This document shows, piece by piece, positions 51,896 to 56,527 of a DNA stretch of 64,000 nucleotides (the stretch's first letter is position 1; each line of letters starts with the position of its first letter). The notes below the pieces were generated by a model. That model was given only the letters and a program-made list of their open reading frames with translations, was not told the DNA's origin and searched no databases. This DNA comes from Nocardia vinacea NBRC 16497. GTDB taxonomy: Bacteria > Actinomycetota > Actinomycetes > Mycobacteriales > Mycobacteriaceae. The DNA lies in NCBI RefSeq assembly GCF_000308835.1, contig NZ_BAGN01000007.1, positions 1 to 64,000 on the forward strand, in the 5' to 3' direction. Both the position numbers and the translations under genes were made by a program.

Positions 51896-53131
51896 GTGGC
51901 TGATCCTGGAGCTTTCTCGTTCACCGTTGGTACCCGTATCCCGGGGCGACACGGTCGAACGGGCGTGATCAGCACACCGCACGGTGATATCGCGACGCCC
52001 GCATTCATTCCGGTCGGCACCAAGGCAACGGTCAAGGCGGTGCTGCCCGAGACCATGAAGGAACTCGGCGCGCAGGCACTGCTGGCGAATGCCTACCACC
52101 TGTACCTGCAGCCGGGCTCGGATATCGTCGACGAGGCGGGTGGGCTGAGCGAATTCATGAACTGGCCCGGCCCGACCTTCACCGACAGCGGCGGCTTCCA
52201 GGTGATGTCGCTGGGTGTCGGCTTCAAGAAGGTGCTGGCGATGGAGGCGGTCGACGTCCGAAGTGATGACGTGATCGCCAAGGGCAAAGAGCGCTTGGCC
52301 ACCGTCGACGATGACGGCGTCACCTTCCGCTCGCACCTCGACGGCTCGAAACACCGGTTCACCCCGGAGGTTTCGATGGGCATCCAGCATCAACTCGGCG
52401 CGGACATCATGTTCGCCTTCGACGAGCTGACCACCCTGCTGAATACCCGCGCCTACCAGGAGAAGTCGCTGCAGCGCACGCACGAATGGGCGCAGCGCTG
52501 CATCGACGAGCACGAACGGCTGACCGCCGCGCGCGCGCATCGCCCGTATCAGGCGCTGTTCGCGGTGATCCAGGGCGCACAGTACGAAGACCTACGGCGC
52601 AAGGCCTGCCGGGAGCTGGAATCGCTGCGCGGCAGTGCCGGAACGGGTTTCGACGGTTACGGCATCGGCGGTGCGCTGGAGAAACACAATCTCGGAACTA
52701 TCGTCGGCTGGTGCTGCGATGAACTGCCCGAGGACAAGCCGCGGCATATGCTCGGCATCAGCGAACCGGAGGACGTGTTCGTCGCGGTGGAGAACGGAGC
52801 GGACACCTTCGACTGTGTGAACCCGTCCCGGGTTGCGCGCAATGCGGCGATCTATGTCGCCGAGGGCAGATTCAATATCAATACCGCCAGATTCCGCCGC
52901 GACTTCACCCCGATCGACGACACCTGCGACTGCTACACCTGCGCGAACTACACCCGGGCCTATATCCATCACCTGTTCAAGGCCAAGGAGATGCTGGCCT
53001 CGACGCTGTGCACAATTCACAACGAGCGCTACACGATTCGGCTGGTCGACCGGATTCGCGAGAGCATCGAGGGCGGCTACTTCGACGAGTACAAGGCCGA
53101 AACGTTGGGCCGCTGGAAAGGCGGTGTCTGA
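51896..53131 (+). CDS. tgt: tRNA-guanine (queuine) transglycosylase
   Basis: 411 residues from the GTG at 51896 (GAGAGG nine bases upstream; the ATG at 51887 has no room for it). [23 protein letters not shown] fits the family start; [12 protein letters not shown] has the catalytic aspartate; the zinc site is [17 protein letters not shown]. It swaps G34 for a queuosine precursor in GUN tRNAs. The usual base-recognition loop G-G-L-A-V-G-E reads [10 protein letters not shown] (about 256-266), so base preference may differ. No preQ1 synthesis genes are near; the transporter and gluQ genes are. Confidence 0.93.
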
Positions 53132-53456
53132 TTGCAGCGCCTGCGGCGCTGCGTGTTCGCGGCCCCCTGTGTCTCGCGTCCGAGCCGTCGAGACTCGCGA
53201 CTTCGTCGCATGCGCTTCGACGACTCGGACGCGAGACGGGCCGCGAACGGGTCGCTCGTAAAACTCGCTCCGTGGTTGCTGGGAAGGGCTTGGATCCTTA
53301 CTGCTTCGGCACTTCTGGTGATTACCCCGGGTCCGCTCGAGCACCTCGCGATGCGTCGGGAGCGCCGACTCGGACGCGAGACGGGCCGTGAAAGGTCGCT
53401 CGTAAGACTCGCTCCGTCGTGATTGCGCCCCGAGCGGGCCTGCGGCGTAATAACTT
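53132..53456. repeat. Intergenic repeats after tgt
   Basis: About 325 bases without a gene. A 21-bp inverted repeat with one mismatch (53171-53191 and 53217-53237, core GTCTCGCGTCCGAG) can form a large hairpin. A 52/53-base direct repeat (53221-53273 and 53366-53417, starting CGACTCGGACGCGAGACGGG) overlaps its right arm. Confidence 0.85.
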
Positions 53457-54239
53457 TCAGCTCAGGAGCGCGGGAGTTTCGCGCGGCGCGTAGCTCGGCT
53501 CGTGCTTCTTCAGGAAGGCGATCACGCGGTAGGTGATCGGCAGCACGATGACCTCGGCGAGCGTCTTCCAGACGAAGCCGACGATCACGTAGTTCACGAA
53601 CTGTCCCCAGCTGTCGATGCCGATGGCGGTGGCCGCGATCGAGCAGAAGATCAGCGTGTCACCGAATTCGCCGACGATCGTGGAGCCGATCAGCCGCGCC
53701 CACAGGTGTTTCTCCTTGGTCTTCTCCTTGATAAGTACCAGCGAGGCCGAATTCAGCATCTCGCCGACGAAGTACCCGGCCAGGCCCGCGGCGACCAGCT
53801 GCGGGGTGGTGCCGATGACGGATCGGAAGGCTTCCTGATTGTCGTAGAAGGTCGCGGCGGGCAGCTCGATGGCGATCTTGAAGCAGACGACCGCGAGCAG
53901 CAGGATGGCGAAGCCGTAGTAGATGGCCCGGCGGGCGGCCTTGAAGCCGTATACCTCGCTGAGCACGTCGCCGATGATGTAGGCCAGGGGGAACAGGAAC
54001 CACGCACCGTCGGTGGAGATCGGCAGGATCTCGATGGGGCCCAGTTTCACCGAATGATCGGTGAAGAATTGAACGCCTTTGGTTGCGCAGATATTCGAGA
54101 TGATCAGCGTCGCGGTGAACAGGGCGACGACGGGGGTGTAGTAGCCCCGCGCGGCGACGGCGAATGCCGCGTGGGCCGCCGCGGGGCCCCCAGATTCTGG
54201 GTGTTCTTCAACTGTTTTGGACTCACTCACGCGCTTCAT
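53457..54239 (-). CDS. yhhQ: Queuosine precursor transporter, YhhQ/QPTR family
   Basis: 260 residues from the ATG at 54239. Six membrane spans; family motifs I-S-N-I-C-A-T-K-G-V-Q-F, F-P-L-A-Y-I-I-G-D-V-L-S-E-V-Y-G-F-K-A-A-R, L-A-G-Y-F-V-G-E-M-L-N-S and F-G-D-T-L-I-F. YhhQ proteins import preQ0/preQ1 or queuine. The convergent tgt and the nearby gluQ give it an obvious job: feeding salvaged base to Tgt. Long polar N-terminus (about 35 residues) before the first helix. Confidence 0.92.
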   Translation of the reverse strand: MKRVSESKTVEEHPESGGPAAAHAAFAVAARGYYTPVVALFTATLIISNICATKGVQFFTDHSVKLGPIEILPISTDGAWFLFPLAYIIGDVLSEVYGFKAARRAIYYGFAILLLAVVCFKIAIELPAATFYDNQEAFRSVIGTTPQLVAAGLAGYFVGEMLNSASLVLIKEKTKEKHLWARLIGSTIVGEFGDTLIFCSIAATAIGIDSWGQFVNYVIVGFVWKTLAEVIVLPITYRVIAFLKKHEPSYAPRETPALLS

Positions 54240-54268
54240 CCAACCAGGTTGTGGAATAGGCTGTAGCA

Positions 54269-54847: not shown

Positions 54848-55549
54848 TCAGGCCTTGACGACCTGGGTGCCGCCGGCGAACTTATCGTGCCAGCCCTGCT
54901 TGTTCGGGTCCTGCGAGGTGGTGATGATCATGTAGATGATCAGGCCGAGCTCGGCCAGGCCACCGATGCACGGAATGATGCCGAGGGCGACATAGAGGTT
55001 GCGCTTCAGCGAAACCTCCGGGGTGATCTTCGCCGCACCGCCGGGGGCGACGACCTTGAGGCCCACGATCTTCTTGCCGAGGGTGGTGCCCTGTGAGGTC
55101 TCCATGCCGACGAAGTACCCGAGCAACGCGATCGCGCCCACCAGACCGGTCACGATCTGCCCGCCGAGCCCGGAGCCCAGGATGAGCAAGATGATGACGT
55201 AGACCGGGATGCTGACGATCAGGTGATCGATGACGCGGGCGCCGATGCGGGCTCCGATATCACCGGGCTGTCCGCCGTATCCGTATCCCGGCTGCTCGCC
55301 ATAGGGCTGCTGGGGGTAGGGCTGCTGCTGGCCGTACGGATCCTGCGGCTGCTGCCCGTACTGCGGCTGCTGTCCATACTGGGGCTGCTGTCCGTACTGC
55401 GGCGGCTGCTGCCCGTACTGGGGCTGCTGTCCGTACTGCGGCGGCTGCTGGCCGTATTGGGGCTGTCCACCCTGCGGGTACTGCTGGCCGCCTGGGTATT
55501 GTTGCCCGCCTTGCGGATATTGGTTGGGGTCGTACCCACCGCTTGTCAT
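54848..55549 (-). CDS. RDD family membrane protein with YGQQP repeats
   Basis: 233 residues from the ATG at 55549. The first 95 residues are a tandem array of Y-G-Q-Q-P/P-Q-Y-G-Q-Q-P-Q units (prion-like, Tyr/Gln/Pro-rich), then an RDD domain with G-A-R-I-G-A-R-V-I-D-H-L-I-V, T-L-G-K-K-I-V-G-L-K-V-V and N-K-Q-G-W-H-D-K-F-A-G-G-T. Two to three membrane spans. Function of RDD proteins is uncertain (ion transport has been proposed). The DNA repeats may vary between strains. Confidence 0.9.
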   Translation of the reverse strand: MTSGGYDPNQYPQGGQQYPGGQQYPQGGQPQYGQQPPQYGQQPQYGQQPPQYGQQPQYGQQPQYGQQPQDPYGQQQPYPQQPYGEQPGYGYGGQPGDIGARIGARVIDHLIVSIPVYVIILLILGSGLGGQIVTGLVGAIALLGYFVGMETSQGTTLGKKIVGLKVVAPGGAAKITPEVSLKRNLYVALGIIPCIGGLAELGLIIYMIITTSQDPNKQGWHDKFAGGTQVVKA

Positions 55550-55594
55550 ATATGTGTCCTCGTCAGTGATCAGTAGATCGGTCGATTGCGTACG

Positions 55595-56527
55595 TTACGG
55601 ACATCGCGCGGGTTGCAACAACCCATTCTCATCGAGTATCCACGGTTCCTCGGTCAGATAGGCCGGGTCGAACCCGTCGAGTAGTTCGGCGGGCGAAACC
55701 GGGGGATAGCCCAGGGAACTGGCCAGCGCGGCCGCGACCCGATCGGGTGTGTTACCGAGGGCGAGCTGATCGCCGAGTGTCACCGCGCCATCGCGTTTGG
55801 CCAGTCGCTTGCCCGCGGCATTCAGCACCAGCGGCACATGTGCGTAATGCGGAACCGGAAGGTCGAGCAGCGTCGCGAGATAGGCCTGGCGTGGCGTCGA
55901 CGGCAGCAGGTCGTCCCCGCGGACCACCTGATCGATGCCCTGCTCCGCATCGTCGACGACGACGGCGAGGTTGTACGCCGGAATTCCGTCGCCGCGGCGC
56001 AGTACGACATCGTCGACGGGGCCGCGGTAGCGCCCGTGCAATTCATCGGTGATCTCGAATTCGCGCGCGTGCGCACGCAATCGCAGCGCGGCCGGGCGTC
56101 CGTCGGTGTGATGTGCGGCCCGCTCGGTCTCCGTCAGATCACGGCAGGTGCCCGGATAGTGGCCGAGCGGCCCGTGCGGTGCGGTCGCGGCCTGCTGGAT
56201 TTCCCTTCGGGTGCAATAGCACTCGTAGGTGAGACCGTCGGCCGTGAGCCGATCGATGGCCGCCTGATAGTGCGGCAGCCGGTCGCTCTGCCGGACGACG
56301 GGACCGTCCCAATCGAGTCCGATCGCGGCGAGATCCGCCAGTTGGCGCTGTTCAGCGCCCGGCCGGACGCGATCCAGATCGTCGATCCGGAGCACGAAGC
56401 GGCGTCCGGTCGATCGCGCGAACAACCAGGCCAGCACCGCGGTGCGCAGATTTCCGATGTGCAGATCGCCGGACGGGCTCGGGGCGTACCTGCCTGCTGG
56501 ATTTCTGATTACTGGCACGTTTGCCAT
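55595..56527 (-). CDS. gluQ: Glutamyl-Q tRNA(Asp) synthetase
   Basis: 310 residues from the ATG at 56527, one base after the stop of the DUF309 gene. R-Y-A-P-S-P-S-G-D-L-H-I-G-N-L-R-T (HIGH motif), L-R-I-D-D-L-D-R-V-R, zinc ligands in Y-E-C-Y-C-T-R-R-E-I and G-T-C-R, and K-R-L-A-K-R-D-G-A-V (KMSKS motif); no anticodon-binding domain. It attaches glutamate to the cyclopentenediol of queuosine in tRNA-Asp. Together with tgt and yhhQ it makes a queuosine group within 5 kb. Confidence 0.92.
   Translation of the reverse strand: MANVPVIRNPAGRYAPSPSGDLHIGNLRTAVLAWLFARSTGRRFVLRIDDLDRVRPGAEQRQLADLAAIGLDWDGPVVRQSDRLPHYQAAIDRLTADGLTYECYCTRREIQQAATAPHGPLGHYPGTCRDLTETERAAHHTDGRPAALRLRAHAREFEITDELHGRYRGPVDDVVLRRGDGIPAYNLAVVVDDAEQGIDQVVRGDDLLPSTPRQAYLATLLDLPVPHYAHVPLVLNAAGKRLAKRDGAVTLGDQLALGNTPDRVAAALASSLGYPPVSPAELLDGFDPAYLTEEPWILDENGLLQPARCP

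Follow-up and report, generated by a model that had tools for sequence, protein, structure and literature searches.

A 64,000-nucleotide stretch of DNA from Nocardia vinacea NBRC 16497 (positions 1 to 64,000 of contig NZ_BAGN01000007.1; hereafter the window) carries what is, judging by its sequence, very probably a queuine salvage locus, in which queuine would be inserted into tRNA by a tRNA guanosine(34) transglycosylase (Tgt) with a shortened base-recognition loop. The source genome comprises 10.15 Mb in 428 contigs. Within 4.7 kb, the locus holds tgt (51887–53131, plus strand), a gene for a queuosine precursor transporter of the COG1738/QPTR family (53457–54428, minus strand) and gluQ (55595–56527, minus strand), which encodes a glutamyl-Q tRNA(Asp) synthetase (GluQRS). 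A first-pass annotation had placed these three genes less than 5 kb apart, and each product indeed passes its curated NCBIfam cut-off: Tgt scores 428 bits against 306.75 on TIGR00430 (and 430 bits on PF01702), the transporter 98.9 against 50.95 on TIGR00697 (163 bits on PF02592) and GluQRS 314 against 276.7 on TIGR03838. The name ‘YhhQ-type transporter’ given in that annotation is right at the level of the COG1738/QPTR family but not at that of the E. coli YhhQ equivalog, since the protein reaches 36 of the 252 bits required by NF008406. The genome has a single tgt gene; its second match to the GluQRS profile is GltX-like and separate from gluQ. Queuine salvage is predicted for most Actinomycetota of a gut set (PMC11130926). 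As published predictions already cover such salvage in Mycobacteriales and Actinomycetota, the gene content of the locus is expected. The salvage locus is real and of a kind usual in its clade, and the variant pocket of Tgt is its less expected part.

In one and the same alignment, the window Tgt has GGALEK where E. coli Tgt has GGLAVGE; both the loop letters and the preQ1-type motif had been given correctly in the first-pass annotation. The loop is encoded at 52667–52684 on the plus strand (residues 260–265 of the translation starting at 51890) and departs from the preQ1-type pattern GG(L)x(V)GE with its Glu235. Compared with the preQ1 type, the 231–233 segment is missing (which residues count as deleted depends on the alignment), Glu235 is gone and the exchanges C158L, Y258H and M260L are present. 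Leu180 (52427–52429, plus strand) aligns with Cys158 of Zymomonas mobilis Tgt, and His286 and Leu288 (52745–52753, plus strand) align with what we take to be Tyr258 and Met260 in the same numbering. These changes recur in 202 ALEK-type rows, about half of which were selected by the motif itself: position 158 is Leu in 191, Cys in nine and a gap in two, while Tyr258 is replaced by His and Met260 by Leu in 201 each and Glu235 is found in none. An insertion of about 25 residues follows the SGGFQ active-site segment (52223–52297, plus strand; residues 112–136). The spacing from SGGFQ to GV is 11–14 residues in canonical proteins where the pattern was found, 32–33 in those with an SLG loop and 34–52 in those with an ALEK loop. 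The hallmarks of a bacterial Tgt are nonetheless in place: the equivalents of Asp102 and Asp280, the catalytic pair, and of Asp156 and Gln203 are retained throughout the class, and the window protein has kept its zinc cysteines. The predicted structure has a Tgt fold (mean predicted local distance difference test score 87), with VIA Z scores of 48.4–50.0 and Foldseek template modelling scores of 0.82–0.85 by query and 0.90–0.94 by target among the 50 matches listed. In the model, the loop runs directly into a helix starting at Lys265; confidence averages 79 for residues 261–270 and is 42–54 in the insertion. That the pocket differs from the preQ1 type is well supported.

Positions 158, 233 and 235 are regarded as specificity-related because of data on Z. 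mobilis Tgt (PMC3660597). In that enzyme, Val233 displaces the cyclopentenediol of queuine so that it collides with tRNA, the exchange Cys158Val increases the preQ1 KM by an order of magnitude, and Glu235 holds the Leu231/Ala232 peptide in two orientations, one for preQ1 and one for guanine (PMC3660597). From these data and the gene content we infer the substrate, its transport and the structural cause as follows. The QPTR transporter would import queuine, and Tgt would swap G34 of GUN tRNAs directly for it, like the eukaryotic and Chlamydia enzymes; GluQRS would then glutamylate Q34 of tRNA-Asp, in line with the known function of its family, which makes glutamyl-queuosine at the wobble position of this tRNA (PMC3542578). 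The short GGA[LI]xK loop would remove the part of the pocket, formed by Val233, that pushes the cyclopentenediol into the clash, and also Glu235, the stabiliser of the preQ1/guanine backbone flip; C158L, Y258H, M260L and the insertion would accompany the shortening. A pocket opened by deletion in this manner could accommodate queuine with tRNA bound and would no longer favour preQ1.

The pathway genes missing from the genome are consistent with this proposal. Profile searches of the genome returned no match for QueF or QueH. QueG had no match over the cut-off; the only two matches scored 53 and 43 bits against 200, and both read as ferredoxin/reductive-dehalogenase-like on NCBIfam. Two weak QueC matches of 26 and 22.5 bits lie above Pfam’s low cut-off of 22, and the better one reaches 23.7 of 150.3 bits on the NCBIfam equivalog. 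A hidden preQ1 or queuosine pathway was thus not found for QueC, QueF, QueG and QueH (QueD, QueE, QueK, QueL and Qng1 were not searched), and the earlier remark that preQ1 synthesis genes are lacking held for the genes covered. The genome therefore has tgt without QueG and QueH, the pattern of direct queuine salvage. Apart from these, one QueA-like gene is present on another contig; its product scores 220 bits on PF02547 but falls below the QueA equivalog models, with 150 of 324 and 117 of 267 bits. It may be a queuosine gene, although it is not counted as one here. Its family occurs in 18 of the 101 family genomes described below, the set in which QueA was searched, and two of the 18 lack tgt. 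In the seven of the 18 loci examined, the QueA-like gene lies directly 3′ of a gene of one family, forming a conserved pair (1969–3770 of locus L347 on contig 254 of the N. vinacea genome; also loci L348–L353); three of the seven neighbours were scanned, and all are short-chain dehydrogenases.

A sample of 101 Mycobacteriaceae genomes, 95 of them with tgt, was used to assess the conservation of the loop. The short loop GGA[LI]xK is present in all 95 primary Tgts, as ALEK in 88, AIEK, ALQK and AIAK in two each and ALTK in one, and neither its Ala nor its Lys ever varies; this count does not include six further, degenerate copies found in genus g30. A loop peculiar to the source genome can therefore be rejected. 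The loop called unusual in the first-pass annotation does differ from those of textbook enzymes but is the norm within the family. QueH was found in none of the 101 genomes, and QueG over the cut-off likewise in none. QueC exceeds Pfam’s low cut-off in 27 of the 101, scoring above 250 bits only in genomes G063 and G094, with a next best score of 27.4. In G063 (L356:6207–12575), QueC stands with QueD and QueE beside DpdA, two copies of DpdB and DpdC; since this is a cluster for 7-deazaguanine DNA modification, its QueC does not speak for the synthesis of tRNA queuosine, and the tRNA Tgt of the same genome is of the short-loop type.

Within the family, retention and loss of tgt go hand in hand with those of QPTR and GluQRS. 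Both tgt and QPTR occur in 94 of the 101 genomes, tgt alone in one (G087, genus g3, which may use another importer) and neither in six. Of the 95 genomes with tgt, 92 also have GluQRS (86 over the cut-off and six at 255–276 bits), and it is found in none of the six genomes without tgt. One of its three absences, in G091, concerns a genome where tgt is close to a contig end. The six losses of tgt fall in four genera (g12, g18, g27 and g29), of which g27 and g29 also include genomes retaining everything. In the three tgt-bearing genomes of g29, the transporter gene is either a long way from tgt or on a different contig, and both tgt-less genomes lack the transporter, so that a single deletion does not account for the joint loss. 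Because completed queuosine is the substrate of GluQRS, this co-inheritance makes queuine the most likely base for Tgt to insert. Retention of tgt and GluQRS without QueG or QueH would most simply mean that the cells receive finished queuine. Salvage of an imported base, presumed in the first-pass annotation, is well supported, and the range of bases it left open, ‘queuine or something else’, now tightens in favour of queuine.

Across the phylum, 198 genomes were sampled, of which 115 have tgt, and the loop was read in 109; the six others were G000, G022, G029 and G052, which are in the family table, and G120 and G241, whose genes are split. QueH or QueG over the cut-off accompanies the canonical GGxxxGE loop in 98 of 102 genomes. 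The four exceptions, counted as lacking, are G103, G177 and G272, with a sub-threshold QueG, and G274, which has neither and is 85% complete. None of the seven genomes with a shortened loop (five SLG/TLG and two ALEK/AFEK) has either gene over the cut-off. The equivalent of Glu235 is kept in all 102 canonical rows and is absent from the class of the window Tgt. Fisher’s test on the phylum table of loop against pathway gives p = 1.1e-8, a value that ignores descent and is inflated by shared ancestry. With all alignment columns, the ALEK and SLG rows form sister clades (Shimodaira–Hasegawa-like approximate likelihood-ratio support of 94). With the trait columns removed, a quick tree separates the two, implying two changes, while the tree that keeps them together has the higher likelihood and is not rejected (approximately unbiased test, p-AU 0.614). 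The stems of the short-loop clades are long, so that branch attraction is possible. Independent pairs of loop and pathway number one on supported branches and two on all branches, and a sign test cannot reach significance. Many independent switches of the loop, considered as a possibility, are unsupported by these trees, which show one or two changes.

The second short-loop type, GG[ST]LG[AR][DE]K, was observed at loci L086 and L091–L094 of families f31 and f39, in five genomes of the phylum sample that have neither QueG nor QueH. Like the ALEK type, it has an insertion, the Lys, His258 and Leu260, but it retains Cys158. A DNA pattern for GIGGALEK matched at least 117 stretches of GTDB genomes. 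Among the 117 matches listed, 106 hold a Tgt; the 11 without one are, by title, from other phyla and are chance matches. By title, 104 of the 106 Tgt-bearing stretches are actinobacterial and two are from Saccharibacteria. Roughly half of the ALEK rows counted above, 202 in all, come from this set, which, being selected by the motif, was excluded from the estimate of loop conservation. Among the 106 loci listed, a QPTR homolog is in the fetched tile in 56 (convergent and downstream in 53) and GluQRS in 25; since no tile exceeds 8 kb, a missing gene carries little weight. The two contigs labelled Candidatus Saccharibacteria (L212:1429–2637 and L235:6502–7719) encode GGALEK Tgts that are 58–60% identical to the window Tgt, with no QPTR or GluQRS within the fetched tile. 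Perhaps these genes were transferred from actinobacterial hosts, or the contigs were wrongly binned. Taken together, the observations tip us, by a modest measure, towards the view that Actinomycetota evolved their own class of queuine-inserting Tgt once or twice, by deletion of the 231–233 segment and the Glu235 switch rather than by substitution as in eukaryotes, with an invariant Lys where the next helix begins and about 25 residues added beside the active site; the two Saccharibacteria contigs would share this class, perhaps from actinobacterial hosts.

Several points weigh against queuine as the inserted base or against the role assigned to the loop. GGALEK departs from the published queuine-type motif GG[LS][AS]G. 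GluQRS is missing in G001 and G032 (genus g2) despite the presence of tgt and QPTR. The contrast between loop and pathway amounts to only one or two independent evolutionary events, because the short-loop proteins form two clades that are possibly sisters. The QueA-like gene is present in the genome. In addition, Bartonella lacks QueA, QueG and QueH, and its Tgt, with a canonical GGLAVG loop, prefers preQ1 (PMC11570991); the absence of genes alone consequently does not fix the substrate of Tgt.

The Bartonella example, which demonstrates that bacteria with tgt only can use preQ1 (PMC11570991), and the QueA-like gene on another contig lend themselves to an unlikely alternative, namely that preQ1 (or preQ0) is imported and inserted, after which the tRNA keeps preQ1 or the QueA-like gene makes epoxyqueuosine. 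The preQ1-type loop is gone, whereas every canonical loop of the phylum sample keeps the Glu235 equivalent. The QueA-like protein is far under the equivalog cut-offs, its family is present in 18 of the 101 Mycobacteriaceae genomes and is found twice without tgt, and in the loci examined its gene follows a short-chain dehydrogenase gene; furthermore, GluQRS would be left without a known substrate.

As the pocket is unlike both known types, Tgt could also insert a different 7-deazaguanine base taken from the surroundings, for instance epoxyqueuine or a decorated form of queuine. This is improbable to a still greater degree, because the co-inherited GluQRS requires the queuosine diol in the product, and no candidate gene for another base turned up, although no search aimed at one was made. 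It is scarcely credible that Tgt is degenerate or has departed from tRNA modification. Glu235 is gone along with the Val233 segment, and genus g30 does contain degenerate paralogs of Tgt, but the class as a whole preserves the catalytic residues, the window protein still has its zinc cysteines, and the loop is conserved in all 95 family genomes and retained alongside the transporter and GluQRS. The insertion of queuine remains the preferred reading.

In the window, tgt starts with ATG at 51887, and the frame is also open from a GTG farther upstream, at 51809; the likely start of the transporter gene is at 54242. Two bystander genes for membrane proteins lie between the transporter gene and gluQ, one of the DUF4190 family (54269–54781, plus strand; 67 bits on PF13828) and one of the RDD family (54848–55549, minus strand; 84 bits on PF06271). 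Elsewhere, extra Tgt-like copies (L110–L115 in genus g30 and L125) keep Asp102 but no longer have Asp156, Gln203 or the GG pair. Locus L125 (5892–8000) of Tsukamurella conjunctivitidis also encodes an intact GGALEK Tgt fused to an MMPL transporter domain, and an MMPL–Tgt fusion has been reported for Tsukamurella (PMC11130926).

The rejection of queuine by bacterial Tgt is explained only in part, as the double exchange C158V/V233G in the Z. mobilis enzyme yielded no queuine-inserting enzyme (PMC3660597). A large natural clade that has very probably been converted by another route offers a list of co-varying positions, and its pocket variant represents a testable second route to queuine specificity. 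If the proposal is true, queuine use can be predicted from Tgt sequences where the published motif fails, and many actinobacteria are marked as queuine consumers within their communities. A literature survey on actinobacterial queuosine, GluQRS and Tgt specificity found no assay of an actinobacterial Tgt among the titles listed. The study in PMC11570991, which includes an alignment figure, modelled a Nakamurella Tgt, and the short loop may already be tabulated in its Table S2.

The closest known system is direct queuine salvage in Chlamydia trachomatis, which, like the present locus, combines tgt with a COG1738 transporter without the preQ1 pathway (PMC11570991). Queuine is inserted directly in that system, and by analogy the same is presumed here. 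The two differ in the loop, compared by the published motif (GG[LS][AS]G in that study and GGALEK here), and in their carriers, a host-dependent pathogen in the one case and a large genome of free-living type in the other. The preQ1-type Tgts of Z. mobilis and E. coli share the fold and catalytic residues of the window Tgt, which differs from them in lacking the LxVGE loop, Cys158, Tyr258 and Met260 and in having about 25 extra residues. The eukaryotic enzyme QTRT1 has the presumed substrate, queuine, in common with the window Tgt, and Cys158 is replaced by an aliphatic residue in both. As described in PMC3660597, eukaryotes have Val158 and Gly233, in contrast to Leu and a deletion here, and the N. 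vinacea genome has one tgt gene only. By its sequence, the pocket fits neither the GG[LS][AS]G motif nor the eukaryotic C158V/V233G solution.

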